From positions 1-34,579 of IMG/VR virus record IMGVR_UViG_3300028571_000061: a stretch of DNA of 34,579 nucleotides; one strand, 5' to 3'. The stretch comes from a virus. A model generated the notes under the pieces. The model was not told where the DNA came from. It worked only from the letters and a program-made list of their open reading frames with translations, and ran no database searches. Positions within the stretch are counted from its first letter, which is position 1; the number at the start of each line of letters is the position of its first letter. Made by a program: the position numbers and the translations under genes. Below are positions 18,972 to 34,579 of this stretch, one piece after another.

Positions 18972-19020
18972 GTTGTTATTATGAGAACAAATACGTATAT
19001 TATGGTTCAATTAAGGTTAT

Positions 19021-20346: not shown

Positions 20347-20762
20347 TGGATATTACATACACGTTACAAGATATAATGAATAAGTTATTCTGTACTTTTA
20401 CCTCACATGAGGAATTAGAAGAAACTCTTAATACAATAAAATCACATTATTCTATCCTATATGGTAAAATTTTTATATTAGAAGCCAAAGATAGTAATGA
20501 GTTATTATGTACGTATAATATTGATCCTATAAATTCAAATTCAAAGGTTATATCAAATACAATATTACTTCATCGTAAAAAAGAAACCAATACTCTTTAT
20601 ACTATAAATGCATTAAATCTCTTAATTAAAGAGTTAAATATGGGAGTAATTGATTCTAATTATAAAGTAGAATGGCTTGATTTTAAAAATACCGTTCTAT
20701 TAACGCAAGGATCTGATCTAAGAAAACTCCAAACCAAGATCAATAAGATTATCCTAGTTTAA
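20346..20762 (+). CDS. Unknown protein coupled to the DNA polymerase gene
   Basis: 138 residues, with its ATG sharing one base with the polymerase stop, so translation is probably coupled. It has a helical start (YTLQDIMNKLFCTFTSHEEL), a beta-rich centre (LCTYNIDPINSNSKVISNTI, then LLHRKKETNTLYTINALNLL) and a closing basic helix (LRKLQTKINKIIL). I believe similar proteins occur between polymerase and SSB genes in related phages, always unassigned. The coupling suggests a replication accessory role (inference only). Confidence 0.65.
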   Translation: MDITYTLQDIMNKLFCTFTSHEELEETLNTIKSHYSILYGKIFILEAKDSNELLCTYNIDPINSNSKVISNTILLHRKKETNTLYTINALNLLIKELNMGVIDSNYKVEWLDFKNTVLLTQGSDLRKLQTKINKIILV

Positions 20763-20771
20763 TTATTTTAC

Positions 20772-20783
20772 AAAATAAAGTTG
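20772..20783 (+). promoter_or_regulatory. Shared upstream motif AAAATAAAGTTG (copy 2)
   Basis: Identical to 8872-8883. It stands 57-68 nt before the gp32-like start in the 77-nt gap after 20762. No TATTTATA element is present here, consistent with an early or middle promoter. Confidence 0.35.
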
Positions 20784-20839
20784 CATATTGTAATAATTAT
20801 TACTATATTATAAATTATTATTAAACAAAAGTTACGAAA

Positions 20840-21709
20840 ATGGATTTAAACCTAATCAAATCAAAGCTAGCATCAATGCAGCAAAAACCTGGCGGATCTA
20901 AAAGAGATCTATCAGTTATTATCTGGAAACCTGCAATCGGAAAACACTCGGTCCGCATGGTTCCATCAACTCACAATAAGCAATGGCCATTTAAAGAATT
21001 ATTTTTTCATTATGGAATTGGAAATCGAACTATGATTTCATTAATTAACTTTGATGAAAAAGATCCTATTGTTGAATTTGCAGCACAAATTAGTAAATCT
21101 AATGATAAAGAAAATTGGCAATTAGCTAAAAAGTTACAACCTAAAATGAGGGTATTTGCACCTGTTATTGTTAGAGGTGAAGAAGACAAGGGTATACGTC
21201 TATGGGAGTTCGGAAAGGAGGTGTATATGGAACTTCTAGCGATTTTAGAAGACGAAGATGTAGGTGATTTTACCGATCCAGTTGAAGGACGAGATCTAAC
21301 AATTGATACAGTAGGACCAGATCAATCAGGAAGAACGTACAACAAAACCTCAGTTAGAGTACGTACAAAAATAACACCACTATCAACTAATGCAAGTGAT
21401 GTAAAATCTTGGTTAGAAACTCAACCTAATCCATTAGAATTATTTAAAAAATATCCATATGAGGAAATGAAAGAATCATTACTTCAATGGTTAAGCCCTG
21501 AATCAGAAGAAGAGATTAAACCAGCACCAATTAATACATCTACATTATCACCGCAAAATATTTCTAAAACAATACCAGAATTAGTTTCGGCAGGAACAGG
21601 TAATAAATATTCAATCTCTACAAAGAAGAATATAGATGATGAGTTTGACAAGTTATTTAGTGATACATCAGAATCAGCAGTAGCAGATGATGATGATTTA
21701 CCGTTTTAA
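20840..21709 (+). CDS. Single-stranded DNA-binding protein (gp32-like)
   Basis: 289 residues, near T4 gp32 (301 aa). An N-terminal basic cooperativity-type segment (LIKSKLASMQQKPGGSKRDL) is followed by an OB-like core (SVRMVPSTHNKQWPFKELFF; MRVFAPVIVRGEEDKGIRLW; LLAILEDEDVGDFTDPVEGR) and a strongly acidic C-terminal tail (DDDDLPF) typical of SSBs that recruit partner proteins. There is no cysteine in the protein, so the gp32 zinc site (His-Cys3) is absent. It coats ssDNA during replication and recombination. The next gene is UvsX, the usual partner, 13 bases downstream. Confidence 0.92.
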   Translation: MDLNLIKSKLASMQQKPGGSKRDLSVIIWKPAIGKHSVRMVPSTHNKQWPFKELFFHYGIGNRTMISLINFDEKDPIVEFAAQISKSNDKENWQLAKKLQPKMRVFAPVIVRGEEDKGIRLWEFGKEVYMELLAILEDEDVGDFTDPVEGRDLTIDTVGPDQSGRTYNKTSVRVRTKITPLSTNASDVKSWLETQPNPLELFKKYPYEEMKESLLQWLSPESEEEIKPAPINTSTLSPQNISKTIPELVSAGTGNKYSISTKKNIDDEFDKLFSDTSESAVADDDDLPF

Positions 21710-21722
21710 TTAAAAATATAAT

Positions 21723-22808
21723 ATGGCAAAAACAAAAGAGGTATCACTAAATGCAAGTATATCAAGTGCAATAAATGGTAAGCATGATTTAGATAAATTT
21801 AAAAAAGGTAAGAACCTAGGAGGAGCAAGTGTTAAATTTAAAGACCAAGCATGGATACCTTTATCCAATGCTTTTAGAAAAGCTGTATCAGTGCCAGGTA
21901 TTCCTGCAGGCCATATTACCCTTTTAAGAGGGCACTCAGATACAGGTAAAACAACTGCATTGTTAGAAGCAGCAGTAAATACCCAGAAAATGGGCATTTT
22001 ACCTGTATTAATTATTACTGAGATGAAATGGTCATGGGAGCATGCTAAGATGATGGGTCTCCAGGTAGAAGATGTTATAGATGAAGAAACAGGAGAAGTA
22101 GTAGATTATAAAGGATTTTTTATATATACTGATAGAAGCAGCCTTGGTACTATTGAAGATGTTGCATCATTAATAAATGATCTATTAGATGAGCAGAAAA
22201 AAGGTAATTTACCGTATGATCTGTGTTTTTTCTGGGACTCAATTGGGTCTGTACCATGCAAGATGTCAGTAGAAAAATCATCTAATAATAATGAATGGAA
22301 TGCTGGAGCGATGTCTGTTCAGTTCGGAAATTTTATCAATCAACGAATATTATTATCTAGAAAATCTAATTCACCATATACTAATACACTAGTTGCTATT
22401 AACAAGGTATGGGTTGCTAAACCTAATATGCCTATGGAGCAGCCTAGAATGAAAAACAAGGGCGGGGATACAATGTGGTTTGACGCTACTATGATTATTA
22501 CATTTGGTAATATAACAAATCAAGGTACATCTAAAATTAAAGCTATTAAGGGAGGTAAAGATGTAACGTTTGCTAAACGTACTAAAGTTCACGTAGAGAA
22601 GAATCACATATCTGGTGTTGATACTAAAGGAAATATTATTATGACACCTCACGGTTTTATAGAAGATGATAAAAAAGATTTAGAAGTATATAAAAAGCAA
22701 CACTCAGAAGAATGGTTAAAAATATTAGGCGGAGGAGATTTTCAAGTAGTAATTGAAGCAGAAATGACAGAAGATATTAGAGATATTTTTGATCATACAA
22801 ATGAATAA
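21723..22808 (+). CDS. uvsX: UvsX RecA-like recombinase
   Basis: 361 residues (T4 UvsX 391). Walker A is GHSDTGKT at residues 70-77, followed by TALLEAAVNTQKMGILPVLI and the ITEMKWSWEH region. Walker B is the hydrophobic DLCFFWDSIGSV. The DNA-binding loop region and GGDTMWFDATMIITFGN match UvsX proteins. It catalyses ATP-dependent strand exchange for recombination-dependent replication on gp32-coated ssDNA. The gp32-like gene lies upstream, and the flap nuclease overlaps by eight bases downstream, forming one replication/recombination operon. Confidence 0.95.
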   Translation: MAKTKEVSLNASISSAINGKHDLDKFKKGKNLGGASVKFKDQAWIPLSNAFRKAVSVPGIPAGHITLLRGHSDTGKTTALLEAAVNTQKMGILPVLIITEMKWSWEHAKMMGLQVEDVIDEETGEVVDYKGFFIYTDRSSLGTIEDVASLINDLLDEQKKGNLPYDLCFFWDSIGSVPCKMSVEKSSNNNEWNAGAMSVQFGNFINQRILLSRKSNSPYTNTLVAINKVWVAKPNMPMEQPRMKNKGGDTMWFDATMIITFGNITNQGTSKIKAIKGGKDVTFAKRTKVHVEKNHISGVDTKGNIIMTPHGFIEDDKKDLEVYKKQHSEEWLKILGGGDFQVVIEAEMTEDIRDIFDHTNE

Positions 22809-23829
22809 AGACTTTAGAGCAATATTCGATAGTTTAAAAGAATCAAAACAAGAGACCTTATATACTAATGATAAGGTACTCTTGGTTGATTCCTTAAATA
22901 CCTTTTTAAGAAGTTTTGTGATGATCAATCATTTAAACTCTCAAGGAAATCATATAGGTGGATTAACCGGTTATTTAAAATCAATAGGGTTTGCTATTAA
23001 GCTTATAAAGCCTACAAGAGTAATATTAGTTTTTGACGGAATGGGAGGGTCAACAAATAAACAATACCTCTATCCAGAATACAAAGCTAATCGTAAGCTT
23101 AAAAAGATAACTAATTGGGATGCATTTGATACAAGAGAAGAAGAAGCCGAATCCATTACTAATCAAGTATTAAGGCTAATAGAGTATTTAAAATGTCTCC
23201 CTGTAGATTTACTTTGCATAGATAAAATCGAAGCAGATGATATAATAGGGTATCTAGCTAACAACCTAGAAGGTCACGTACATATAATGTCATCTGATAA
23301 AGATTATATTCAATTAGTATCAGACAGAGTAACCGTGTATTCTCCTATAAAGAAAAAGTTCTATACTCCTAAAGAAGTTAAACAAGAACTATTAATTCCT
23401 GCCATTAATTATCTTAATCATAAGGTATTATTAGGAGATATATCTGATAATGTTCCCGGGGTCCGAGGATTAGGACCTAAAGGATTAATTAAATTGTTTC
23501 CGCAGTTACAAAGTGAAAGAAAAATCCCGCTAAAAGAGATAGTACAATATAGTAAAGATAATGCAGATAGTAAAAAAGCATACCAATCAGTATATAACTT
23601 CCGAAACCAATTAGAGATTAATGAAAAGCTAATGGATCTCCATAGTCCTAATGTACCAGAAGAAGATATATTAACTATACAAAATATCATTGCAAATCCA
23701 AGCAAACGCATTGATAGACAGTCCTTCTTAAATATGTATAGTGAAGATAATTTAGGTAATTCTATACCTAATACTGCAATGTGGTTATTTGATGTATTTG
23801 ATTATATTACACATATTAAGAACAAATAG
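22801..23829 (+). CDS. rnh: T4 RNase H-like 5' nuclease (FEN family)
   Basis: 342 residues from ATG 22801 (MNKDFRAIFDSLKESKQETL). A longer reading from TTG 22789 is possible but less likely. FEN family acidic motifs are present: VLLVDSLNTFLRS, VILVFDGMGG plus YPEYKANRK, IEADDIIGYLA and MSSDKDYIQLV. The helix-3-turn-helix DNA-binding motif LLGDISDNVPGVRGLGPKG follows. In T4 this enzyme removes RNA primers and 5' flaps during lagging-strand synthesis. The eight-base overlap with uvsX (ATGAATAA) suggests translational coupling. The length is slightly above T4 RNase H (305 aa). Confidence 0.93.
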   Translation: MNKDFRAIFDSLKESKQETLYTNDKVLLVDSLNTFLRSFVMINHLNSQGNHIGGLTGYLKSIGFAIKLIKPTRVILVFDGMGGSTNKQYLYPEYKANRKLKKITNWDAFDTREEEAESITNQVLRLIEYLKCLPVDLLCIDKIEADDIIGYLANNLEGHVHIMSSDKDYIQLVSDRVTVYSPIKKKFYTPKEVKQELLIPAINYLNHKVLLGDISDNVPGVRGLGPKGLIKLFPQLQSERKIPLKEIVQYSKDNADSKKAYQSVYNFRNQLEINEKLMDLHSPNVPEEDILTIQNIIANPSKRIDRQSFLNMYSEDNLGNSIPNTAMWLFDVFDYITHIKNK

Positions 23830-23864
23830 TTGATATTATAAAAAAAGGTTATTAAATTAAGGAT

Positions 23865-24638
23865 ATGACGGCTCTAAATAAATTATCTCAATACGGATCA
23901 AGTTTTCAAATTAAAGTATTAACATCATTATTAAAGCATAAAGAATTTCTACAAAATATATACGATGTATTAGATCCTGAATATTTTGATAATCCGGCTC
24001 ATAAATGGTTAGTTGAAGAAATTTTAAGATATTATCATAGATATCACACTGTTGCAACTTTAGATTCATTACATATCGAGGTTAAAAAAATCGATAATGA
24101 AATATTAAAAGTATCTGTTGTAGAGCAGTTAAAAGAAGCTTTTAAAACTATTAATGAAGATCAAGATTATATAGAACAGGAGTTTGCTAACTTTTGTAAG
24201 AATCAGCAATTAAAAAAAGCACTATTAACATCTGTAGATCTATTGCAATCAGGATTATATGATGATATTAGAACTATTATTGATTCAGCATTAAAATCCG
24301 GTCAAGATAAAAATATTGGACATGAATATGAAAAGGATATTGAGTCTAGATACCGCAAAGAGGAAAGAGGAGCAATACCTACTGGTTGGGAAATAATAGA
24401 TACTATGCTGCAAGGAGGTCTAGGATCAGGTGATTTTGGAATTATATTTGGTAATCCAGGAGGAGGAAAATGCGTGGGATATAATACTAGTATTGAAATT
24501 CAATATGAGGAATACGGTATTGAACTACTTAATAATGTTAGGGAAAAATATATTATGTGGATATCACCTTGGGATGAATTTAATATAGATGGAATACATT
24601 TATATGGATGGCAGGTATATAATTTATTAAAAAAGTAA
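23865..24638 (+). CDS. gp41-like replicative helicase, N-terminal part fused to split intein N-fragment
   Basis: 257 residues. Residues 1-202 are the N-extein: a DnaB-like N-terminal helical domain (QIKVLTSLLKHKEFLQNIYD; PAHKWLVEEILRYYHR), the linker and the start of the RecA-like core (PTGWEIIDTMLQGGLGSGDF), stopping exactly inside the P-loop after GNPGGGK. Residue 203 is Cys, the first residue of an intein, and residues 203-257 are its N-fragment, followed by a stop. The Ser completing the P-loop is residue 139 of the protein encoded at 25549-26736. Trans-splicing should give a ~459-residue helicase (T4 gp41 475). Without splicing there is no ATP site. An endonuclease gene occupies the gap. 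Confidence 0.92.
   Translation: MTALNKLSQYGSSFQIKVLTSLLKHKEFLQNIYDVLDPEYFDNPAHKWLVEEILRYYHRYHTVATLDSLHIEVKKIDNEILKVSVVEQLKEAFKTINEDQDYIEQEFANFCKNQQLKKALLTSVDLLQSGLYDDIRTIIDSALKSGQDKNIGHEYEKDIESRYRKEERGAIPTGWEIIDTMLQGGLGSGDFGIIFGNPGGGKCVGYNTSIEIQYEEYGIELLNNVREKYIMWISPWDEFNIDGIHLYGWQVYNLLKK
24471..24635 (+). other. Split intein N-fragment (helicase), atypically short
   Basis: The 55 residues start CVGYNTSIEIQYEEYGIELL, which fits intein block A (Cys1, then x-N-T-x-I). The fragment ends without block B (TxxH); that block is on the C-fragment. This resembles the AceL-TerL type of split, where only the first strand and a little more are on the N-piece. The Trp/Tyr-rich tail (WISPWDEFNIDGIHLYGWQV) has no intein motif I know. 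Confidence 0.85.
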
Positions 24639-24656
24639 TATATTTACGTCCACCGG

Positions 24657-24669
24657 GATATTTATAATA
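24657..24669 (+). promoter_or_regulatory. Putative late promoter (GATATTTATAATA) of homing endonuclease 1
   Basis: Exact match to the sheath and tube gene elements; the core starts 25 nt before ATG 24684. It lies inside the gap between the two halves of the helicase gene, so the endonuclease can be transcribed separately. Confidence 0.6.
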
Positions 24670-24683
24670 AATACATAAATATT

Positions 24684-25562
24684 ATGAATATAGGATTAAA
24701 ATGTGTTATATGTGGTCATAAAGAAAAATATAACCTAAATAAACATTTAAAAGAAAAACACAATATAACTACAAAAGAGTATAAAAAGAAATATCCAGGC
24801 AATAAAACTATGACAGGTCATAGTAAAAGAACAGTTGAATACTGGTATTATAAAGGTTATTCATACGATCAATCAGTGTTAAAAGTTAAAGAGTTTCAAT
24901 CAAGTAGTAAAAAAATATATATTAATAATCTTATAAATCTAGGATTAACTAAATCTGAAGCTCAATATAAATGGAATATAAAACAATCTGAAAATTCACA
25001 ACTATCTATTAATCATTACTTAAAGAAAGGTTATTCTAGAAAAGAAGCAATAATATTAATATCAAACATTCAATCTATTAATAGTAAACTATCATCTAAA
25101 TTTAAAGGACATAATCATACTGATAAAACAAAAAGTATTATAGGTCAGAAAGTAAAAGAACAGATAAAGAAAGAAGGAGCATTAGTTGGCGTATCAAGAA
25201 CCAGAAATGGTGCTCAAAGTAATAGATCAAAATCAGAAATAGAATGTTATAATATTTTAAAAAAACATTTTAAAGATTTAAAATGTAATGTTGAAATAGA
25301 GGGTAAAATAGTAGATATGATCTATAATAAATTAATAATTGAGTATTATGGAGATTACTGGCATAGAAATCCTAAAAAATATAATATAGATCATGTATCT
25401 CATAAAAAAACATCTCAAGATATTTGGAATAAAGATTTAAAAAGATTATCTTTATTTAATAGTATTGGGTATAATACATATATTATATGGGAAAGTGATT
25501 GGAAAGAAGACAATAATAAAGTTATAAACGAGTTATATAATATTATAAATGGTAATACATAA
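24684..25562 (+). CDS. Free-standing homing endonuclease (Vsr-like/EDxHD type) inside the helicase split
   Basis: 292 residues. The N-terminal C2H2-like zinc finger has Cys7, Cys10, His21 and His26 (CVICGHKEKYNLNKHLKEKH). A Ser/Lys-rich middle has repeated helix motifs (GYSYDQSVLKVKEFQS; GLTKSEAQYKWNIKQS; GYSRKEAIILISNIQS), probably DNA-binding. The C-terminal nuclease carries SEIECYNIL (Glu185/187), IVDM (Asp211), IIEYYGDYWH (Glu220, Asp224, His227), a Lys/Asp-rich helix and NTYIIWESDW. These fit the Vsr-related nuclease family described for 'fractured' phage genes. It is expected to cut the uninterrupted helicase P-loop allele and spread the intein. The last 14 bases overlap the helicase C-part. 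Confidence 0.85.
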   Translation: MNIGLKCVICGHKEKYNLNKHLKEKHNITTKEYKKKYPGNKTMTGHSKRTVEYWYYKGYSYDQSVLKVKEFQSSSKKIYINNLINLGLTKSEAQYKWNIKQSENSQLSINHYLKKGYSRKEAIILISNIQSINSKLSSKFKGHNHTDKTKSIIGQKVKEQIKKEGALVGVSRTRNGAQSNRSKSEIECYNILKKHFKDLKCNVEIEGKIVDMIYNKLIIEYYGDYWHRNPKKYNIDHVSHKKTSQDIWNKDLKRLSLFNSIGYNTYIIWESDWKEDNNKVINELYNIINGNT

Positions 25563-25962
25563 AAGAGAAGTAAATAAAAAAGTTAAAATAGGAGATCTAT
25601 TTCTTAAATTAGGAATAACACCATTTGAACATAATACATATATTCCGGAATTTAACTTAAAGGTTAAAACTCCCTATGGATATAATAGTGTACAAAGCTT
25701 ATTCACTACCGAAAAACAATCCACAATAACAACATATTTTAAAAACGGAAAAAGATTAACTACATCTCCACATCATCAAGTAAAATCTATTAATGGAGAA
25801 TGGAAAAAAATAATAGATATTAATATCGGAGATAAAATATTAACAGACATAGGATATACAGAAGTAATTAAACAAAATAAAAAAGATAAAAAGATAGTAC
25901 TATATGATATATCAGTAAATGAAGTTCATTGCTATTATAGTAATGGAATACTATCGCATAAT
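25549..25962 (+). other. Split intein C-fragment (helicase), long, carries block B
   Basis: 138 residues: KVKIGDLFLKLG helix, NLKVKTPYGYNSVQSLF, block B TTSPHHQV (T-x2-H, around residues 72-76), GDKILTDIGYTEVI, block F VLYDISVNEVHCYY and block G NGILSHN. The protein beyond block A therefore sits on the C-piece, the reverse of the usual DnaE-type split. The terminal Asn precedes Ser139. Confidence 0.87.
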
Positions 25963-26736
25963 TCATGGTGCTTAGTATCATTAGGGGCTATTGCAATAAA
26001 ATTAGGATATAATGTTTTACATTATACTTTAGAGTTATCTGAATCATATGTTGCTAAAAGGTATGATGCTGTATTTTCAGGAACACCAATCGAAAAGCTA
26101 GAAACAAATAAAGATATATTAAATGATGTAATTAATAATTTACCAGGAACATTAATTATTAAAGAATACTCTCCTGGTAGAGCGTCTATATCCACGATAG
26201 AAACTCATATTCAAAAATGTACCGATCTAGGAACTAAACCAGATCTAATAATTATTGACTATGTAGATTTATTAAAATCTAAACGTAAATCTACAGAAAA
26301 GAAAGAAGAGATAGATGATGTATATACTGCAGCTAAAGGACTTGCAAGAGAATTAAAAGTACCAGTATGGACGGTATCACAAGTAAATAGAGCAGGAGCT
26401 AAGGATGATATTATTGAAGGAGATAAAGCAGCAGGATCCTATGATAAAATTATGATAGCTGATTTTGCAATGTCATTATCAAGAAAAAGACAGGATAAAG
26501 TAAACGGTACAGGTAGATTTCATATTATGAAAAATAGATACGGTATGGACGGAATGTCATATGGAGCTGTAATAAATACTTCTGTCGGCAAAATTACAAT
26601 TGATAATAATGAGTTTGATGAGTCAAATATAGAACAGGGTAGTGAAAATACCGTATGTGGTAAAATAAATAATTTTAATAGAGATGAAAGAGAAATATTA
26701 AGTAAAAAGTTTTTTGAATTAGGCGGAATCGGTTAA
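25549..26736 (+). CDS. Split intein C-fragment fused to gp41-like helicase C-terminal part
   Basis: 395 residues. Residues 1-138 are the intein C-fragment, ending in GILSHN; Ser139 is the +1 nucleophile and also the P-loop Ser. Residues 139-395 complete the RecA-like helicase core: SWCLVSLGAIAIKLGYNVLH, LELSESYVAKRYDAVFSG, Walker B KPDLIIIDYVDLLKS, the VPVWTVSQVNRAGAKDDIIE sensor region, and FHIMKNRYGMDGMSYG. The helicase unwinds DNA 5' to 3' at the fork as a hexamer. The ATG at 25549 overlaps the endonuclease end, and no TATTTATA element precedes it, so it is probably read by coupling from the endonuclease message or from upstream. No other start gives a complete intein part. Confidence 0.92.
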   Translation: MVIHKREVNKKVKIGDLFLKLGITPFEHNTYIPEFNLKVKTPYGYNSVQSLFTTEKQSTITTYFKNGKRLTTSPHHQVKSINGEWKKIIDINIGDKILTDIGYTEVIKQNKKDKKIVLYDISVNEVHCYYSNGILSHNSWCLVSLGAIAIKLGYNVLHYTLELSESYVAKRYDAVFSGTPIEKLETNKDILNDVINNLPGTLIIKEYSPGRASISTIETHIQKCTDLGTKPDLIIIDYVDLLKSKRKSTEKKEEIDDVYTAAKGLARELKVPVWTVSQVNRAGAKDDIIEGDKAAGSYDKIMIADFAMSLSRKRQDKVNGTGRFHIMKNRYGMDGMSYGAVINTSVGKITIDNNEFDESNIEQGSENTVCGKINNFNRDEREILSKKFFELGGIG

Positions 26737-26742
26737 TATTAT

Positions 26743-26755
26743 GATATTTATTTAA
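26743..26755 (+). promoter_or_regulatory. Putative late promoter (GATATTTATTTAA) before 26767
   Basis: One base departs from the core (TATTTATT). It starts 22-24 nt before ATG 26767, in the gap after the helicase gene. Confidence 0.45.
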
Positions 26756-26766
26756 AATAAAGAATT

Positions 26767-26979
26767 ATGAGTATATTAAATCAAACATCCCAAAGTCAAT
26801 TAAGCGTCAAAGGTAAAAAGGGCGGAATTGCTATTAATAATAAAAATATTACAAACTATGATAATACTTTAGTTACAACAAGAGGTCAAGGTAATGTTAT
26901 ACCACAAATTGAACCACCAAATCAATCAAATCTATCTCCAGAACCTGGAAAAAAACCAACAAAATTAATTAATCACTAA
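26767..26979 (+). CDS. Small polar protein of unknown function (70 aa)
   Basis: The 70-residue product is rich in Asn, Gln, Gly, Lys and Pro, with MSILNQTSQSQLSVKGKKGG at the start and PEPGKKPTKLINH at the end. No cysteines, hydrophobic core or known motif are seen, so it is probably disordered. A late-type element in front and hairpins behind suggest a self-contained transcription unit between the helicase and reductase genes, perhaps a virion or packaging-associated peptide (speculative). Confidence 0.55.
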   Translation: MSILNQTSQSQLSVKGKKGGIAINNKNITNYDNTLVTTRGQGNVIPQIEPPNQSNLSPEPGKKPTKLINH

Positions 26980-26991
26980 TATTGATTAATT
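26967..26991 (+). terminator. AT-rich hairpin at the end of the 70-aa gene (weak terminator)
   Basis: AATTAATCA (26967-26975) pairs with TGATTAATT (26983-26991) over a 7-nt loop. TTATAAATT and a later T run follow. The stop codon lies in the loop. An all-AT stem makes termination doubtful. Confidence 0.35.
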
Positions 26992-27026
26992 TTATAAATT
27001 AGCATTTTTACATAAATTTTTTTTAA

Positions 27027-27066
27027 CCTGAAAAATCAGGTATGGATACCCTATCCGCTTTTATTT
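27027..27066 (+). terminator. Two GC-containing hairpins upstream of the reductase gene
   Basis: CCTGA-AAAA-TCAGG (27027-27040) is followed by GGATA-CCC-TATCC (27044-27056) and then GCTTTTATTT. The second hairpin plus T-run looks like a terminator. The structures lie 12-51 nt before the nrdJ start, so a leader-regulatory role is the alternative. Confidence 0.45.
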
Positions 27067-27077
27067 AATTTTAAAAT

Positions 27078-28334
27078 ATGAACATTACACAACAAGTACT
27101 TAGCGACATTACAGTTTACATGAAATACTCTAGATATATTCAAGAGATAAACAGACGAGAAACATGGAATGAAATAGCTGATAGAAACAAGCAGATGCAT
27201 TTATTTAAATTTCCTGATTTAAAAGAAGAAATAGAAAATGCATATAAATTTGTTTATGACAGAAAGGTACTACCTTCCATGAGATCACTCCAATTCGGTG
27301 GTACACCTGTAGAGTTAAACAATACTCGTATATTCAACTGTTCATTTTTACCAATCGATGATTATAGATCCTTCTCAGAATCAATGTTCCTACTATTATC
27401 AGGAACTGGAGTTGGATTTAGCGTACAACAGCATCACATCGAAAAATTACCTGAAATTAAAGTTCCAAGTAAAACTAAAAGATATTTAATAGGCGATAGC
27501 ATTGAAGGATGGTCCGATGCAGTAAGAATGTTATGTAAGTCATATTTTACAGGTTCACCTCTTCCAAGATTTGACTTTAGAGATATCAGGCCTAAAGGAG
27601 CACAATTAATCACCTCAGGTGGTAAAGCCCCAGGTCCGGAACCATTAAAAGAATGTTTATTTCAAATACAGAAAATATTTGAAAGAAAGCAAACAGGAGA
27701 AAAACTAACTTCATTAGAGTGTCATGATATTGTTTGCTTTTTAGCAGATGCAGTACTATCAGGCGGAATTCGTAGGGCAGCATTAATTTCATTATTTAAT
27801 TTAGACGATGAAGATATGCTAACTTGTAAATTTGGAAACTGGTGGGAAACTAACCCACAGCGCGGTAGAGCTAATAATTCTGCAGTAGTTATGCGTCATA
27901 AGATTACTGAAGATGAGTTTCATAAATTATGGAAGAAAATTGAATTAAGCGGATCTGGAGAACCAGGTATTTACTTTAGTAACGACAAAGACTGGGGATC
28001 TAATCCATGTTGTTTTATTGGTAATACATTAATTGAAACAGATTCTGGAAAAAAATCAATTAAGGAGATAGTAGATTTAATTAATAATGGTGATAAATGC
28101 CAAGTTCAAACATATAATGAAAAAACAAAACAAATAGAATTAAATACAGTTAAAGCTGGAATGTTAACCAAGAAAAACACAACAGTTATCAAACTCACGA
28201 TCGAAGATAACAATATAGAATATTCAGTAACATGTACACCAGATCATCAGTTTTATACAACTAATAGAGGCTGGGTTCAATGTAAAGATATTACACATGA
28301 GGATGAATTAGTAATATATCCATCTGTTTTTTAA
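27078..28334 (+). CDS. nrdJ: Class II ribonucleotide reductase, part 1, fused to split intein A N-fragment
   Basis: 418 residues. Residues 1-311 form the N-extein: KVLPSMRSLQFGGTPVELNN, TRIFNCSFLP (Cys88, redox partner cysteine), FLLLSGTGVGFSVQQHHIEK, PRFDFRDIRPKGAQLITSGG, LADAVLSGGIRRAALISLF, and ANNSAVVM. The sequence stops at NPC, where the last Cys (311) corresponds to the thiyl-radical cysteine of class II enzymes. Residues 312-418 are the intein N-fragment. No R2/NrdF partner is seen and the sequence pattern is NrdJ-like, implying adenosylcobalamin as radical source. The enzyme makes deoxynucleotides for phage DNA synthesis. By itself this part lacks the Glu of N-x-C-x-E and the phosphate loop. 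Confidence 0.93.
   Translation: MNITQQVLSDITVYMKYSRYIQEINRRETWNEIADRNKQMHLFKFPDLKEEIENAYKFVYDRKVLPSMRSLQFGGTPVELNNTRIFNCSFLPIDDYRSFSESMFLLLSGTGVGFSVQQHHIEKLPEIKVPSKTKRYLIGDSIEGWSDAVRMLCKSYFTGSPLPRFDFRDIRPKGAQLITSGGKAPGPEPLKECLFQIQKIFERKQTGEKLTSLECHDIVCFLADAVLSGGIRRAALISLFNLDDEDMLTCKFGNWWETNPQRGRANNSAVVMRHKITEDEFHKLWKKIELSGSGEPGIYFSNDKDWGSNPCCFIGNTLIETDSGKKSIKEIVDLINNGDKCQVQTYNEKTKQIELNTVKAGMLTKKNTTVIKLTIEDNNIEYSVTCTPDHQFYTTNRGWVQCKDITHEDELVIYPSVF
28011..28331 (+). other. Split intein A N-fragment (reductase, site 1)
   Basis: 107 residues with block A CFIGNTLIETDSGKK, block B SVTCTPDHQF (T-x2-H) and the NRGWVQCKDITHEDELVI strand before the stop. It closely resembles the NrdJ-1 type of split intein, including its insertion after NPC. 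Confidence 0.92.
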
Positions 28335-28367
28335 TATGTAATTGATTACGTTTTAATGCAATATCTT

Positions 28368-28397
28368 GATATTTATATTAAAGAGATTTATATAAAA
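28368..28397 (+). promoter_or_regulatory. Putative late promoter elements of homing endonuclease 2
   Basis: GATATTTATATTA (28368-28380) matches the element but sits 39 nt before ATG 28409. A second, shorter GATTTATATAAAA (28385-28397) stands at the usual distance. Either or both may act. Confidence 0.45.
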
Positions 28398-28408
28398 TTT
28401 AATCAATT

Positions 28409-29197
28409 ATGGGAGGTAAAGTAAAGAAAGGAACTTGTAAAAATAGAGGATATATAGGATATCATATAACTTGGGATAATAAAAAGGTATTTTTACGTAG
28501 TAAAGCTGAATTTGTTTATGCAAGAATGTTAGATATTGAAAAAACACCATATATGACAGAATGCATAACGTATATAATATCTGAAACTCGATATAAGCCA
28601 GATTTTTTTATATTTGATAGTGAATATATTCATGTTAAAAAAATAGTTGAAATAAAAGGATTAGATGATAGAAAAACAGCAATGGAATATTTATCTAAAT
28701 ATAAAAATTTTTTTAATTTAATAGGGATTGAATATGATGTAGTATGGAATTATCGAAAGATTATAACTAAATATAATCTTAATAAAGATGTAGAATTATG
28801 GATAAATAAATCATTAAATATATATGATAATATATCTGCTAGTAGAGGTAAAAACAATCCGATGTATGGAAAAACCCATAAACAATCAACAATAGAATTA
28901 ATAAGAAAAAAAGCACTAAACAGACAAACTCCAGAATACCGTAAACAAAACTCCGAAAATCAAATTAATTTTTTTAAATCAGAAGCAGGTATATTAAGAA
29001 GAAAACAAATATCGGATCAAAGAAAAGCATATATAAAACTAAATAATCCAATAATTAACAAGAAATGTAAGGAGTGTAATATAGATTTTGAAAGCAAGTT
29101 AAAATCAAAAAAAGAGTTTTGTAATTATAAATGCTTAAGAAAATGGTCATATAATAACATTCCAAATTACGGTAAACATAAAAGTAAATTAAAATAA
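28409..29197 (+). CDS. Free-standing PD-(D/E)xK homing endonuclease with NUMOD3 and zinc motif
   Basis: 262 residues. The nuclease core lies in the N-terminal half: LRSKAEFVYARMLD (Glu34), YKPDFFIFD (Pro64-Asp65) and IVEIKG (Glu81-x-Lys83), a PD-x15-ExK layout. NUMOD3-type DNA-binding follows (GKNNPMYGKTHKQSTIELIR). The C-terminus has a C-x2-C-x14-C-x3-C zinc motif (CKECNIDF ... FCNYKC) and a basic tail. This is a different nuclease fold from the two other split-associated endonucleases. It sits between parts 1 and 2 of the reductase gene and should cleave intein-free nrdJ at the NPC/CEI site. A five-base gap separates it from part 2. Confidence 0.8.
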   Translation: MGGKVKKGTCKNRGYIGYHITWDNKKVFLRSKAEFVYARMLDIEKTPYMTECITYIISETRYKPDFFIFDSEYIHVKKIVEIKGLDDRKTAMEYLSKYKNFFNLIGIEYDVVWNYRKIITKYNLNKDVELWINKSLNIYDNISASRGKNNPMYGKTHKQSTIELIRKKALNRQTPEYRKQNSENQINFFKSEAGILRRKQISDQRKAYIKLNNPIINKKCKECNIDFESKLKSKKEFCNYKCLRKWSYNNIPNYGKHKSKLK

Positions 29198-29202
29198 TAA
29201 AA

Positions 29203-29310
29203 ATGGCAAAATTAAAATCAATAGAAATATTAAAAGATACACATGATGTATATGATATTGAAGTAGAAAACAACCATAATTTCTTTGCTAATAATATATT
29301 AGCACATAAC
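29203..29310 (+). other. Split intein A C-fragment
   Basis: 36 residues: KLKSIEILKDTHDVYDIEVE (block F) then NNHNFFANNILAHN (block G, His-Asn end) before Cys37. Similar to the NrdJ-1 type C-fragment in length and motif. Starts with its own ATG. Confidence 0.92.
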
Positions 29311-29985
29311 TGCGAAATCGCCTTACGTCCGTATCAGTTTTGTAACTTATGTGAAGTAAATGTGTCAGATATTACATCACAGGAAGATTTAAATCAAAGG
29401 GTAAAAGCAGCTTCATTTATAGGCACACTACAAGCATCATATACAGATTTTCACTATTTAAGAGATATCTGGAAAAAAACAACAGAAAAAGATGCTTTAT
29501 TAGGTGTAGGAATGACTGGAATCGGTTCTGGAGAAATATTAAAATATAACCTAAAACAATCAGCAGATATTGCTAAAGAAGAAAATGCTAGAGTATCTGA
29601 ACTAATAGGAATTAATAAAGCTGCCCGGGTTACTACAGTAAAACCAAGCGGATGCATAACTCCAGATACATTAATTAAAACATCAGTTGGATCAATTACT
29701 ATAGATAAATTATTTGAATTAAACGGATATAATCTAGATGATTTTAAAGATAAGAGTACTTTATTTTTACCTACAACAGAAAACATTTATGTAAAAGATA
29801 AGGATAATGAATGGCAATTAATATCAAATTTATATGTAAATGGAAATCAAGAACTTATTAATATTGAGTTTGAAGATGGATATATTTTTAGATGTACAGA
29901 AAATCACAAACTATTAACATCAAATAGAGGCTGGGTTCGAGCAGATGAATTAACGGAAGAAGATGATATTATTAGTTATGAATAA
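29203..29985 (+). CDS. nrdJ: Reductase middle part flanked by intein A C-fragment and intein B N-fragment
   Basis: 260 residues with the order intein C-fragment (1-36), extein (37-150), intein N-fragment (151-260). The extein starts CEIALRPYQFCNLCEVN: Cys37 is the +1 nucleophile, Glu38 completes the catalytic N-x-C-x-E, and Cys47 is the second redox cysteine (RPYQFC). It continues with LLGVGMTGIGSGEILKY and ends VTTVKPSG. Both ends of this polypeptide must be processed for the reductase to form. The gene starts five bases after endonuclease 2. The topology IntC-extein-IntN is the one used for peptide cyclisation, so specificity of the two inteins matters. Confidence 0.93.
   Translation: MAKLKSIEILKDTHDVYDIEVENNHNFFANNILAHNCEIALRPYQFCNLCEVNVSDITSQEDLNQRVKAASFIGTLQASYTDFHYLRDIWKKTTEKDALLGVGMTGIGSGEILKYNLKQSADIAKEENARVSELIGINKAARVTTVKPSGCITPDTLIKTSVGSITIDKLFELNGYNLDDFKDKSTLFLPTTENIYVKDKDNEWQLISNLYVNGNQELINIEFEDGYIFRCTENHKLLTSNRGWVRADELTEEDDIISYE
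29653..29982 (+). other. Split intein B N-fragment (reductase, site 2)
   Basis: 110 residues: block A CITPDTLIKTSVGSITIDKL, block B FRCTENHKLL (T-x2-H), and NRGWVRADELTEEDDIISY before the stop. The 35-45 residues around DDFKDKSTLFLPTTENIYV are unlike intein A, a possible source of specificity. Confidence 0.92.
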
Positions 29986-30010
29986 TATGCATTTTAACTA
30001 TTAAACCTAC

Positions 30011-30023
30011 TATTTATAATAAA
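30011..30023 (+). promoter_or_regulatory. Putative late promoter (TATTTATAATAAA) of homing endonuclease 3
   Basis: The core starts 23 nt before ATG 30034. The preceding bases are CTAC rather than GA. Again inside a gene split. Confidence 0.5.
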
Positions 30024-30033
30024 TGAATATATT

Positions 30034-31191
30034 ATGGGTTTAACAGTTAAAGAAGAAAAAACACTTAGATTAAAGCAATTCTTAATACATATTTATGGAT
30101 CTGAATTAGGATTAAAAAGATATTTAGCAATAGTTAAAAGTTCAAATTTAAAAGTATTAATTTTTAAATATGGTAAAGAAGAAGGTATATATAGATTTAA
30201 TAATACTAAAGAAAAACATAAGATTAAAAACACATTACAAGGATTTATAATGAGGTATGGTGAAAAAGAAGGTCCTAGTAAATATTATGAAAAAAATAAA
30301 AAACTTTCTGTAAGTGTTGAATCCCTAAAACTATCTGGAAAAACCGAAGAAGAAATATACAAAATAAGAAGTATACATAAACAGAAATCAGCACAAACAT
30401 TAGAAAATTTTATATTAAGGTATGGTGATAAATTAGGAAAAGAAAAATTCAAAATATTTAATGAAAATAACAGAATAAGTTATAGATCAATAAATCAATT
30501 AATTAATAGAAGAGGTTTAACAGAAGAGGAAGCAAAAAAAATAGTAAAATCTATTCAAATAAGAGATGAAAAATTTTATATAAAAAAATACGGGAAAGAA
30601 TTAGGACAGCAAAAGTTTGAAGAAACTAATAAAAAGAGAGCTTTTGCAAATACTAAGCAATACTATATAGAAAAATATGGAGACGATGGTATTGAAATGT
30701 ATGAAAAAATTCTTAAAAAAAGAATATATACATTATCAAAAGAGTATTATATAGAAAAATATGGAGATAAAAAAGGAATAGAAGTATATCTAAATAATAA
30801 AATAAAAAATAGAGATCAGTATAATGGAGATTCTAAAATTCAATTAAAATTTGCTCAACAACTATATAATGCATTACCAGAACATATTCAAAATCAATTC
30901 ATAGGCCCACCAATAACTCAAAGTAAAATAATATATATTAATTCAGAAGACATAAAAATATCAATACCAGACATATTAATTCAAAACATTATAATAGAAT
31001 TCGATGGAAATTATTGGCACACATTACCAGATATAATAGTTAGAGATTTACTTAAAACTAAAATTCTTACAGAAAAAGGATATAATATAATAAGGGTTAA
31101 TGAATTAGATTATATAAAGGATAAATATTCCGTTATACAAAACGTCATAGAAAAAATTTTAAAACTAATTAGAATAAATAATGAAAATTAA
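30034..31191 (+). CDS. Free-standing homing endonuclease with seven YG repeats and Vsr-like nuclease
   Basis: 385 residues. Residues ~15-260 carry seven copies of a short basic motif, 'F/Y-I/L-x-K/R-YG-x-x-x-G-x-x-K/R-F/Y' (HIYGSELG, FKYGKEEG, MRYGEKEG, LRYGDKLG, KKYGKELG, EKYGDDG, EKYGDKKG), probably modular DNA-binding helices. The C-terminal nuclease has SIPDILIQ, IIIEFDGNYWH (Glu322, Asp324, His329), a Lys-rich helix and GYNIIRVNELDY, related to the Vsr-like core of endonuclease 1. It lies between reductase parts 2 and 3, overlapping part 3 by 11 bases. The expected target is intein-free nrdJ at KPSG/TSS. Confidence 0.8.
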   Translation: MGLTVKEEKTLRLKQFLIHIYGSELGLKRYLAIVKSSNLKVLIFKYGKEEGIYRFNNTKEKHKIKNTLQGFIMRYGEKEGPSKYYEKNKKLSVSVESLKLSGKTEEEIYKIRSIHKQKSAQTLENFILRYGDKLGKEKFKIFNENNRISYRSINQLINRRGLTEEEAKKIVKSIQIRDEKFYIKKYGKELGQQKFEETNKKRAFANTKQYYIEKYGDDGIEMYEKILKKRIYTLSKEYYIEKYGDKKGIEVYLNNKIKNRDQYNGDSKIQLKFAQQLYNALPEHIQNQFIGPPITQSKIIYINSEDIKISIPDILIQNIIIEFDGNYWHTLPDIIVRDLLKTKILTEKGYNIIRVNELDYIKDKYSVIQNVIEKILKLIRINNEN

Positions 31192-31285
31192 ATCAATTAA
31201 AAAAGCTAGCTCGGAGTTTACTGTAGATTTAGAGGTAGAAAATACACATAGCTATCAACTATCAAACGGTGCAGTAGTTCATAAT
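31181..31285 (+). other. Split intein B C-fragment
   Basis: 35 residues: KSIKKASSEFTVDLEVENTH (block F) and SYQLSNGAVVHN (block G) followed by Thr36. Differs clearly from intein A's C-fragment outside DxEVEN and HN. Confidence 0.92.
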
Positions 31286-31861
31286 ACAAGCTCTCTCGTA
31301 TTAGGAACATCATCGGGAATTCATGCTTGGCATAATGATTACTATATCAGAAGAATTAGAGTAGGTAAGAATGAAGCAATCTATACTTATCTTGCCATTA
31401 ATCACCCGGAATTAGTTGAAGATGATTTCTTTAAACCAACAATCCAAGCTGTAATTTCAGTACCGCAAAAAGCACCTGAAGGGTCTATATTAAGAACAGA
31501 AGATGTAATGGATATGTTAGAAAGAGTAAAGAAATTTAATACTCAATGGGTAAAGAAAGGGCATAGAAAAGGAGCTAATACTAATAACGTATCTGCAACA
31601 GTTTCTATTCAAGAAGGAGAATGGGATAAAGTAGGTGAATGGATGTGGAAGAATAGAGAAACATTTAACGGATTATCAGTTTTACCGTATTTCGGAGGAT
31701 CTTACGTACAAGCACCATTTGAAGATATTACTGAAGAAAAGTTTAATGAAATAGTAGAACACCTTCATGCAATAGATCTAACTAAGGTTATTGAATTCTC
31801 AGATAATACTGATCTAAGTGAAAGTCTAGCCTGTTCTGGAGCATCATGTGAAGTATTATAA
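31181..31861 (+). CDS. nrdJ: Intein B C-fragment fused to reductase C-terminal part
   Basis: 226 residues. Residues 1-35 are the intein C-fragment ending GAVVHN. Thr36 is the +1 residue and begins the extein TSSLVLGTSSGIHAWHNDYY, which completes the KPSG-TSS substrate phosphate loop. RRIRVGKNEAIYTYLAINHP, TVSIQEGEWDKVGEWMWKNR and the C-terminal ACSGASCEVL follow; its Cys-x4-Cys pair is the usual mobile thiol pair that re-reduces the active site. The spliced enzyme would be 311+114+191, about 616 residues. Thr as +1 residue is allowed but less common than Ser/Cys. The start overlaps endonuclease 3. Confidence 0.93.
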   Translation: MKIKSIKKASSEFTVDLEVENTHSYQLSNGAVVHNTSSLVLGTSSGIHAWHNDYYIRRIRVGKNEAIYTYLAINHPELVEDDFFKPTIQAVISVPQKAPEGSILRTEDVMDMLERVKKFNTQWVKKGHRKGANTNNVSATVSIQEGEWDKVGEWMWKNRETFNGLSVLPYFGGSYVQAPFEDITEEKFNEIVEHLHAIDLTKVIEFSDNTDLSESLACSGASCEVL

Positions 31862-32029
<168 letters not shown>

Positions 32030-32052
32030 AATTTATTTTACTATATTTAAAA

Positions 32053-32499
32053 ATGGTAAAAGTACAATCAAGAAAATTTATAGAAGAGAAATTATCACAT
32101 CTAAATCCTATTAATTATAATAGATTTCAATGGTGGAGAAATTATATTAATAAAAGTGAACTAACCGGTCACCATCCATTAATTCAACGTATTAAAAACA
32201 GAGATTTTGATTTTTCTCATTATTATTGGCAAGCTCAAAATGCAATCTTGCAATGGGATGATAATATAAAGAATAAAAAAGACTATGAAGAACTTCAAAG
32301 TAAAAGCGGACTATACATGGAAAAGTATAGAAGGTTAATCGAAGACTTTGAAAAAGACGAAAAGAAAAGATTATTAGAATTTAAAAAAGCAATAAAGCAA
32401 GTATTCAGAATAGCTTCAGAAGAATATGATGTGTTATTTGAAAATTTTGTTGGAAATCTAGAAGAATTTTACTATTTTATGGAATTGAAATATAAATAA
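32053..32499 (+). CDS. Unknown helical protein (148 aa)
   Basis: Charged, aromatic-rich protein. The N-terminal half contains LNPINYNRFQWWRNYINKSE and FDFSHYYWQAQNAILQWDD; the C-terminal half is a long Lys/Glu helix (YMEKYRRLIEDFEKDEKKRL). No membrane segment, signal or catalytic motif is seen. It is spaced 23 bases after the DUF5522-like gene. I do not recognise it; its place among accessory genes suggests a host-takeover or metabolic helper role, unproven. Confidence 0.6.
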   Translation: MVKVQSRKFIEEKLSHLNPINYNRFQWWRNYINKSELTGHHPLIQRIKNRDFDFSHYYWQAQNAILQWDDNIKNKKDYEELQSKSGLYMEKYRRLIEDFEKDEKKRLLEFKKAIKQVFRIASEEYDVLFENFVGNLEEFYYFMELKYK

Positions 32500-32517
32500 T
32501 ATATCCAAAACAAAGTT

Positions 32518-33036
32518 ATGACATACGAAAATTTTTTAAAAATAATATTAAAACAAGAAGTATTAGATGAGCAAATTAAAATAGAATTTGTAGATAGATA
32601 TCATGAAATAATTTCTACATTAATTAAAGAGATATATGGTGAAGAGGGTTATGATTGGTATTCTTGGTTCTGCTATGAAAATGATTATGGTCGTAAAGAA
32701 TGGAGTACAAAGGATGGGAAAATTGAATATAGTGCTACTAATGAAAAAGGAGATCCAATCTGTTATTCATTTGAAACATTATGGGAATATTTAGAAGAAA
32801 ATCACTTAATTATAAATAAAGAAAAACTAAAAGTTATGAAAGAATCAAAACAAGAGTATATATCCTTATATGATTTTCTAGGAAAAGCAGCTGGTAAGGA
32901 GCTAGGTGCAAAAGTATATTCAAAATCAAAAGATCTAGATATAATAGTTCATTATAAAAAAATATCAAATAAAGAATATACAGGACTTATTTCATTATAT
33001 CCTACACATTTCTTAGAACAATATTTTAAAAAATAG
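32518..33036 (+). CDS. Unknown acidic protein (172 aa)
   Basis: Soluble protein with an N-terminal segment rich in aromatic residues (YGEEGYDWYSWFCYENDYGR; ICYSFETLWEYLEENHLI), then a basic/helical C-terminal part (YDFLGKAAGKELGAKVYSKS) and a final short strand region. It may contain two small domains. It starts 18 bases after the previous gene and ends ahead of the HNH gene. Not recognised. Confidence 0.6.
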   Translation: MTYENFLKIILKQEVLDEQIKIEFVDRYHEIISTLIKEIYGEEGYDWYSWFCYENDYGRKEWSTKDGKIEYSATNEKGDPICYSFETLWEYLEENHLIINKEKLKVMKESKQEYISLYDFLGKAAGKELGAKVYSKSKDLDIIVHYKKISNKEYTGLISLYPTHFLEQYFKK

Positions 33037-33103
33037 AGTTTTTACTATTCATAATAATATATGGTAAAAATAAAATATTTTTTACATTAAGTGGAGGAAT
33101 TGC

Positions 33104-33115
33104 ATATTTATATTA
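33104..33115 (+). promoter_or_regulatory. Putative late promoter (ATATTTATATTA) of the HNH endonuclease
   Basis: The core starts 19 nt before ATG 33124. Its presence supports 33124 rather than the upstream GTG at 33091 as the start. Confidence 0.5.
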
Positions 33116-33123
33116 AAAATAAT

Positions 33124-33645
33124 ATGCCTAAACTTATAAAAAATTGTGAAATATGTAATAAAGAATTTGAAACCTGGCCTTCCGAAAATTATAGAACATG
33201 TAGTAGAAAATGCGGATCAGAGATACAAAAAAAATCATTAATAGGTAAATTTAAATCTGAAGAGCATAAAAATAATCTCTCAAAAGCTATGAAAAATTCC
33301 GAGGCAAATATAAAAACAAGGTTTAAAAAAGGAAAAGATAATCCTGCTTATGGAAAAAATCAAACAGGTCCAGTAAATAATAATTGGAAAGGTGGAATTA
33401 CTAATACAAATCAAAAACGAAGAAACGATCCAAGATTAATTGAGTGGAGAAAACAAGTTTTTGAAAGAGATAAATATACATGCCAGAAATGTGGTATACA
33501 AGGGTATTTACAAGCACATCATATTATATCATTTAGTAAAGATTTTTCAAAAGCATTTGATATTGAAAATGGACTAACAGTGTGTGTTTCATGTCATGAA
33601 GAAATTCACGGAATATTTATTGGAAAATTCAAACAAAATTCATAA
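33124..33645 (+). CDS. HNH homing endonuclease with zinc motif and NUMOD3
   Basis: 173 residues from ATG 33124 (MPKLIKNCEICNKEFETWPS). An N-terminal zinc-ribbon motif (CEIC ... CSRKC) is followed by a Lys-rich helix, NUMOD3-like GKDNPAYGKN and NNNWKGGI. The C-terminal HNH domain has RKQVFERDKYTCQKCGIQGY, the His-His pair of LQAHHIISF, the Asn of ENGL and CVSCHEEIH, with two Cys-x2-Cys pairs holding zinc. It lies between an unknown gene and queC; neither neighbour is split, so it is a free-standing intergenic homing endonuclease. The longer GTG-initiated reading would add MEELHIYIKNN and destroy the promoter spacing. Confidence 0.88.
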   Translation: MPKLIKNCEICNKEFETWPSENYRTCSRKCGSEIQKKSLIGKFKSEEHKNNLSKAMKNSEANIKTRFKKGKDNPAYGKNQTGPVNNNWKGGITNTNQKRRNDPRLIEWRKQVFERDKYTCQKCGIQGYLQAHHIISFSKDFSKAFDIENGLTVCVSCHEEIHGIFIGKFKQNS

Positions 33646-33655
33646 ATTAAAAGAA

Positions 33656-33687
33656 GGATCAAGCTACTATCCATAACATACTGTAGC
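33656..33687 (+). promoter_or_regulatory. Candidate H-type pseudoknot (preQ1-like) upstream of queC
   Basis: Stem 1 pairs GGAT (33656-33659) with ATCC (33669-33672). Stem 2 pairs GCTAC (33663-33667) with GTAGC (33683-33687). The crossing order makes an H-type pseudoknot with an A-rich third loop (ATAACATACT). TCAAGCTAC resembles the TCTAGCTAC core of class I preQ1 riboswitches. It ends 18 nt before the queC ATG. Stem 1 is short and the ligand-pairing cytosine is not clearly placed, so this is tentative. Confidence 0.35.
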
Positions 33688-33705
33688 ATTTAAATAATAG
33701 TTATT

Positions 33706-34548
33706 ATGAAAAAAATAAAACGACATGTAGTTGTTAGTGCCAGCGGCGGGATGGATTCAAGTACATTACTATTACGCTGTTTAAAGGAATACGATACAGT
33801 AACGGCAATTTCATTTGATTACGGTCAAAAACACAAAGTAGAACTTGAACGTGCTCAATTATTAGTAGATTATATAAATTGTGCTTATGACTTGGATTTT
33901 GAATATGGTATATTAGCTGAAGATATTCCATACTCAAAAATCAATTATCGTCAAATCCAATTAAATGGATTATCCGATCTATTAGATTCAGCATTAGTAA
34001 CAAGAGGTGCAGATATACCAGAAGGACACTATGCCGAAGATAATCAAAAAGCAACTGTAGTCCCTAATCGTAACAAAATATTCGCTTCTATTACTCAAGC
34101 AGTAGCATTATCAGTTGCTCAAAGAACCGGAGAAAATTGTGATATAGCTTTAGGTATACATGCTGGAGACTTTGGAGTATATCCTGATTGTAGACAAGAA
34201 TTCCGTGATGCTGATGATTATGCTTTTAGGATAGGAAATTGGGGATCTGAAAAGGTACAATACTTTACTCCATATCTTAAAGGTGTAAAACTTGATATTT
34301 TGAAAGATGGAGAAAAATTGTGTGAAGAGTTAGGTTTAGATTTTAATGAAGTATATAGAAGAACTAATACTAGTTATAAACCATATCCATCAGGTAATTC
34401 AGATTATAAATCTGCTTCAAGTGTTGAACGAGTAGAGGCTTTTATTAATTTAGGTCGTCCTGACCCTGTAATTTATGAAGATGAAGATGGTATAGCTTCT
34501 TGGGATAAAGTAATTGCTCACGTTAGTAAAGTATTATCTGAAAATTAA
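33706..34548 (+). CDS. queC: QueC-like 7-cyano-7-deazaguanine (preQ0) synthase
   Basis: 280 residues. The PP-loop ATP-pyrophosphatase motif VVVSASGGMDSSTLLLRCL is at residues ~7-25, followed by SFDYGQKHKVELERAQLL, VVPNRNKIFASITQAVALSV, ALGIHAGDFGVYPDCRQEF and YFTPYLKGVKLDIL, all diagnostic of QueC, which converts carboxydeazaguanine to preQ0 with ATP and ammonia. In phages, preQ0 pathway genes usually serve 7-deazaguanine DNA modification against restriction. The C-terminal zinc-site cysteines of cellular QueC (SCY ... CGKC..C) are missing; the region reads NTSYKPYPSGNSDYKSASSV. ERVEAFINLGRPDPVIYEDE shows that the rest of the domain is conserved. Other pathway genes would lie outside the window. 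Confidence 0.92.
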   Translation: MKKIKRHVVVSASGGMDSSTLLLRCLKEYDTVTAISFDYGQKHKVELERAQLLVDYINCAYDLDFEYGILAEDIPYSKINYRQIQLNGLSDLLDSALVTRGADIPEGHYAEDNQKATVVPNRNKIFASITQAVALSVAQRTGENCDIALGIHAGDFGVYPDCRQEFRDADDYAFRIGNWGSEKVQYFTPYLKGVKLDILKDGEKLCEELGLDFNEVYRRTNTSYKPYPSGNSDYKSASSVERVEAFINLGRPDPVIYEDEDGIASWDKVIAHVSKVLSEN

Positions 34549-34579
34549 AAATAAATAATGATAAAGGGATTATATTGAT

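Follow-up and report, generated by a model that had tools for sequence, protein, structure and literature searches.

A phage ribonucleotide reductase probably assembled from three polypeptides by two split inteins

Can one enzyme be assembled in nature from three gene products by two separate protein trans-splicing events? This question is raised by the ribonucleotide reductase (RNR) gene nrdJ of a tailed phage represented by the IMG/VR record IMGVR_UViG_3300028571_000061, the whole of which (34,579 bases, termed the window) was analysed. An initial annotation of the DNA had described one RNR encoded by three genes and joined by two different split inteins; the coordinates, open reading frames (ORFs), extein ends and intein starts that it had proposed were each recovered at the same positions. 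We consider the locus to be, with a probability of about 0.86, a functional, doubly fractured nrdJ whose three polypeptides would be joined by split inteins a and b. The junction NPC/CEI is designated site a, the junction KPSG/TSS site b, and a further split site found in relatives site d (a slash marks the break).

The locus consists of five ORFs, all on the plus strand (27078-28334, 28409-29197, 29203-29985, 30034-31191 and 31181-31861). The first begins with the N-extein (27078-28010; residues 1-311, 311 amino acids (aa), ending SNPC), which carries C88 and the radical cysteine C311, and continues into the N-half of split intein a (28011-28334; 107 aa and a stop codon, beginning CFIGNTLI, block B TPDH; TIGR01445 (intein_Nterm), E=2.3e-9). 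The middle ORF (29203-29985) has the order C-intein, extein, N-intein, with the C-half of intein a (29203-29310; 36 aa, ending ILAHN; TIGR01443 (intein_Cterm), E=2.9e-8), the middle extein (29311-29652; residues 312-425, 114 aa, CEIALRP...TVKPSG, with E313 and C322) and the N-half of split intein b (29653-29985; 110 aa and a stop codon, beginning CITPDTLI, block B TENH; TIGR01445, E=1.2e-10). The last ORF is composed of the C-half of intein b (31181-31285; 35 aa, ending AVVHN; TIGR01443, E=4.6e-5) and the C-extein (31286-31861; residues 426-616, 191 aa, TSSLVLG...CSGASCEVL), which carries the redox pair C608/C613. Both junctions thus have the full set of split-intein motifs, with the N- and C-terminal motifs on separate ORFs: Cys1, a block-B TxxH, a penultimate His followed by Asn, and a +1 residue that is Cys at a and Thr at b. 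The G+C content of the exteins is about 34% and that of the inteins and endonuclease genes 22-31%, which fits the expectation for inserted DNA.

The matches to the curated intein_Nterm, intein_Cterm and RTPR models exclude a chance origin of the pieces. An assembly slip was considered and rejected, as the same arrangement is present in a second IMG/VR record (L002), identical over 13.2 kb, and fractured relatives occur in many other records. A self-splicing intron in the gaps was also rejected, since no Rfam match to a group I or group II intron was found within 19000-34579.

When the exteins were joined in silico at NPC/CEI and KPSG/TSS, a class II RNR (the nrdJ product) of 616 aa was obtained, in agreement with the product of about 616 residues that had been predicted. 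Separately, pieces 1, 2 and 3 match the RTPR model with 139, 37 and 51 bits (E=1.2e-40, 9e-10 and 6.5e-14, respectively); the joined protein scores 257.6 bits (E=2.1e-76) and the NrdJ of a related record (L003), which is intact, 96% identical to the joined exteins and empty at both nrdJ sites, scores 256.4 bits, both values being below the curated RTPR equivalog cut-off of 340. The roles of RTPR residues C119, C408, E410, C419 and C731/C736 are established. By alignment to L. leichmannii RTPR (structure 1L1L), C119 and C408 were assigned to piece 1 (C88 and C311), E410 and C419 to piece 2 (E313 and C322) and C731/C736 to piece 3 (C608/C613), and break a divides the radical cysteine (C408) from the glutamate that acts in catalysis (E410). 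With the family match and every one of these residues present, the joined protein has the features of the monomeric RTPR-type class II enzymes, and is predicted to act as a B12-dependent monomeric RNR. The KPSG/TSS loop at break b presumably binds substrate phosphate, by analogy with known RNR structures. As break a separates C408 from E410 and the redox cysteines sit on piece 3, both splices would be required for activity and the unspliced pieces should be inactive.

The description of the two inteins as different was borne out by a tree of 60 intein pairs, in which all 23 site-b inteins formed one clade (100/100), separate from the site-a and site-d inteins; this clade takes in the class Ia nrdA inteins of cultured phages, which have long branches and a less certain placement. 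Inteins a and b of the window phage are 27% identical in their N-halves and 38% in their C-halves. The nearest solved intein for both N-halves was NrdJ-1 (8UBS; E=4e-19 for a and 9e-8 for b), and as the native junction of NrdJ-1 is NPC/SEI (PMC13123727), site a corresponds to the NrdJ-1 position. These features support three polypeptides and two trans-splicing events as the best reading of the locus. Other inteins were also observed at or beside site a. A contiguous mini-intein, 50-62% identical to the split N-intein of the window, occupies site a in records L285 (4930-7128) and L296, and could possibly be an unsplit ancestor or a re-fused descendant of the split form. A different contiguous intein with a Ser start lies at NP/CC, one residue off site a, in L010, L091, L097 and L146, and a split intein is likewise placed at NP/C in L201 and L363.

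According to the proposed mechanism, three polypeptides would be produced from the nrdJ locus; split intein a would ligate pieces 1 and 2, and split intein b pieces 2 and 3, in each case tracelessly, to give the 616-aa enzyme. Because the order of the middle piece resembles that of an engineered cyclisation construct, inteins a and b would have to be orthogonal; cross-pairing would otherwise close the middle piece into a 114-residue ring, or join pieces 1 and 3 without it, which makes orthogonality a prediction of the model. The separate clades and low identity of the two inteins would explain orthogonal assembly. The nuclease gene in each gap would spread its split intein into empty alleles by homing.

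Such empty alleles were found in two relatives (L003 and L004), in which the two nrdJ inserts and the third insert of the window, in a helicase gene, are all absent and the junctions show neither gain nor loss of bases. The dN/dS values of the exteins, window against L003, were 0.074, 0.038 and 0.092 (intact pairs, 0.02-0.09), while related split-intein pairs gave 0.05-0.19, values which indicate purifying selection on the NrdJ exteins and on related split inteins. Divergence was raised within 15-30 nucleotides (nt) around site b (1-5% of windows), which suggests co-conversion; it was not clearly raised at site a or at the helicase site.

An endonuclease gene had been claimed for each gap and was identified in both. 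Endonuclease gene a (28409-29197, plus strand) encodes a homing endonuclease with a PD-(D/E)xK catalytic core in a restriction-endonuclease-like fold (invariant RSxxE, PDFF and ExK; core P64 D65, E81 and K83), a NUMOD3 domain and a C-terminal Cys motif; the fold matches of its model were to TnsA and the R2 endonuclease, with weak E-values. Endonuclease gene b (30034-31191, plus strand), which shares 11 nt with the gene that follows, encodes a Vsr-like homing endonuclease (EDxHD, I-Bth0305I type; PF18741, E=1.9e-8) with an invariant PD..G..WH..D and the full Vsr-like core PD..E-x-D-G-x-x-W-H..D; the nearest fold was I-Bth0305I (3r3p; probability 1.00, with a weak E=0.08). Breaks of the Dassa type, in which a split intein with a free-standing endonuclease ORF interrupts a conserved enzyme gene, thus number two in nrdJ and one in the helicase gene. 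Motifs resembling a late promoter precede these endonuclease genes. Three exact copies of GATATTTATAATA lie 25-31 nt 5' of the sheath-like, tube-like and helicase-fracture endonuclease ORFs, and near-copies lie 5' of endonuclease genes a (GATATTTATATTA, 28368-28380, plus strand) and b (30009-30021, plus strand), as well as of many related endonuclease genes; in the window such motifs (6237, 8246, 24657, 28368 and 30009) precede structural genes and all three intein-associated endonucleases. We infer that the motif may be a late promoter which travels with the endonuclease. In record L371 (3549-4802), the site-d N-intein and an endonuclease tail of the NUMOD3 type appear to form a single fused ORF.

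A search of metagenomes for other three-part nrdJ loci, which the initial annotation had suggested, recovered nine IMG/VR phage loci besides the window with two or three split sites: sites d, a and b, and hence four pieces, in L201 and L330; a and b in L363, L368 (a 353.8-kb record), L375 and L391; d and a in L353 and L407 (a 318-kb record); and d and b in L371. In L201 (4114-8675; IMGVR 3300009451_000004) and in L330 (4393-8532; 3300035034_001740), nrdJ encodes four polypeptides and has three split inteins; none of the three gaps of L330 contains an endonuclease. At several breaks the intein halves are 28-99 nt apart without an endonuclease; from these short gaps and from L330, it seems that the split state outlasts the endonuclease or is maintained without one. 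In further relatives, such as L234 and L381, contiguous and split inteins are mixed in nrdJ. Intact genes made up 175 of the 253 distinct nrdJ relatives in viral contigs. The expectation that two breaks are rarer than one held in this sample, in which 29 distinct nrdJ rows were split once and 9 more than once; as the sample was partly drawn by split-intein searches and is thus enriched, these counts do not estimate the multi-split frequency in the population. In an extein tree of 154 rows, nine changes are required to account for the nine multi-split rows, seven of them forced by supported branches. The multi-break nrdJ, on sequence evidence, is a recurrent arrangement, wider than had been supposed. 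As to the 24-kb record of L201, seven intein C-termini were counted in it, and a small ORF at its site d resembles a TnpB-type zinc ribbon remnant.

Two complete cultured genomes were found to carry class Ia equivalents of sites a and b. The nrdA of Klebsiella phage KP13-7 (L436, OP617745, 28000-40000) is split at NLC/CEI and PGE/TSS and that of Campylobacter phage WX1 (L439) at NLC/CEI and AGN/SSK, and no further class I or class II RNR large subunit was found in either genome. An additional, earlier gap in the KP13-7 gene is probably an intron. The KP13-7 nrdA pieces carry hypothetical-protein annotation, the middle pieces only as such.

A different explanation is that the pieces are decaying remnants, broken by endonuclease insertion, that yield no active enzyme. 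Phage RNR genes with interruptions have previously been called degenerating (PMC3653736), and the phage might rely on the host enzyme. The frames are nevertheless open, all catalytic and splicing residues are retained, the junctions are precise, and purifying selection acts on the exteins and the related split inteins alike; the tree has nrdJ split at more than one site in nine separate lineages, and complete genomes carrying the same double break have no intact copy, all of which makes decay very improbable. An intact nrdJ elsewhere in the genome, which had been named as evidence for decay, was not seen in the window, in its longer twin L002 or in the other records searched. We give a shade less credence still to an active enzyme formed by non-covalent association of the three polypeptides without splicing, for which the split RNR of Aeromonas phage Aeh1, active without splicing, is the precedent: each break has its own complete split intein, the catalytic residues of which are conserved, the first cut passes through the active site between C408 and E410, and the intein halves would stay attached to the pieces. 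Association of the NrdJ pieces alone is thus unlikely to give an active site, unlike in Aeh1 NrdA. That the inteins are incompletely orthogonal is about as improbable as decay; much side product (circles of the middle piece, joins of pieces 1 and 3) would then be formed, and the double fracture would be a tolerated burden imposed by the homing elements or would even down-regulate RNR. The middle piece does have the layout for cyclisation and both inteins share the HINT fold, but their low identity, their separate clades and recurrence of the arrangement in nine other lineages argue against it.

Several points weigh against a functional, doubly fractured nrdJ. We infer expression, splicing, orthogonality and homing from the DNA, the orthogonality of a and b from their sequence distance. 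The low extein dN/dS may partly predate the insertions, and co-conversion around site b gave a modest signal, which was not taken as proof of homing. A 2013 survey judged similar nrdA genes of Campylobacter phages to be degenerating (PMC3653736). The window (34.6 kb; twin 43.9 kb) is a genome fragment, and the nearest cultured phage has a genome of 160 kb; an intact second nrdJ may therefore exist outside the sequenced part.

Fractured genes with split inteins and a free-standing endonuclease, such as NrdJ-1 and gp41-1, were reportedly described by Dassa et al. in 2009. The window nrdJ resembles these in that a split intein interrupts an enzyme gene whose parts are separated by an endonuclease ORF, Vsr-like in the second gap, and in that site a has the NrdJ-1 position, but the junction is NPC/CEI with a +1 Cys here and NPC/SEI with a +1 Ser there, the first endonuclease is of the PD-(D/E)xK type, and there are two breaks per gene (elsewhere three) rather than one, a comparison that did not include the gene list of the 2009 paper. 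The locus is accordingly regarded as a new variant, with multiple breaks per gene, of the fractured genes already known. In the RNR alpha gene of Campylobacter phage IBB_35, "two inteins" were reported by Carvalho et al. 2012 (PMC3322345); this nrdA and that of WX1 share with the window three ORFs and split inteins at two homologous active-site positions, but encode class Ia NrdA rather than class II NrdJ, and the sources give no account of two trans-splicing events. The nrdA of the jumbo phage KP13-7 likewise has two split inteins with endonuclease-like ORFs between the parts, but is class Ia and has the further gap earlier in the gene. In Aeh1, NrdA is also split into two genes by a homing endonuclease, but there is no intein and the pieces function without splicing (PMC3653736, PMC3322345). 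The scheme of three segments and two split inteins is that of engineered tandem protein trans-splicing (PMC12707363, PMC7090010), the window's version being natural. Literature phrase searches, which did not cover the 2009 paper, returned engineered systems only and no description of natural assembly by two trans-splicing events.

The third fractured gene (23865-26736) lies just 5' of nrdJ and encodes a DnaB-like helicase, broken within Walker A at GGGK/SW; its joined exteins score 95.5 bits to DnaB. The N-part (23865-24638) comprises the N-extein, to 24470 and ending GGGK, and a 55-aa N-intein; it is followed by a Vsr-like endonuclease ORF (24684-25562), with its late-promoter-like motif at 24657-24669, and by the C-part (25549-26736), of which a 138-aa C-intein part extends to 25962 and the C-extein begins SWCLVSLG (all plus strand). 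The intein break is nearer the N-terminus than usual, an arrangement which we take to resemble AceL-TerL-type splits. On the 3' side of the nrdJ locus, a free-standing HNH endonuclease gene (33091-33645) and a queC gene for 7-deazaguanine synthesis (33706-34548) were noted. The core genes match Flavobacterium phage immuto with 68% nucleotide identity, and the gene order polA, ssb, recA, exonuclease, helicase, RNR is common to both phages, the RNR slot of immuto being occupied by a class I RNR; the window phage is Immutovirus-like and probably a Flavobacterium phage. The nearest cultured relative of the window nrdJ is that of Microcystis phage Mel-JY01, which is intact.

Taken across these phages, we lean towards the view that phage RNRs have repeatedly become three- to four-part proteins with two to three site-specific, mutually orthogonal split inteins, that class I and class II enzymes share the two active-site breaks, and that the split outlives the endonuclease (as in L330); this would be a ratchet, formed in nature, by which multi-step trans-splicing becomes obligate. 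Annotators should be warned that gene pieces of this kind are entered as hypothetical proteins or as degenerate genes. The arrangement, if it works as proposed, opens to testing the orthogonality of natural intein pairs, the irreversibility of the split after endonuclease loss, and a delaying or gating of dNTP supply by trans-splicing, and the cultured phage KP13-7, with its homologous double split, provides a ready system for tests. If the proposed reading is true, an essential enzyme would be built from three to four gene products via two to three orthogonal trans-splicing reactions, a natural solution to the engineers' problem of multi-fragment ligation that would supply pre-matched sets of inteins.

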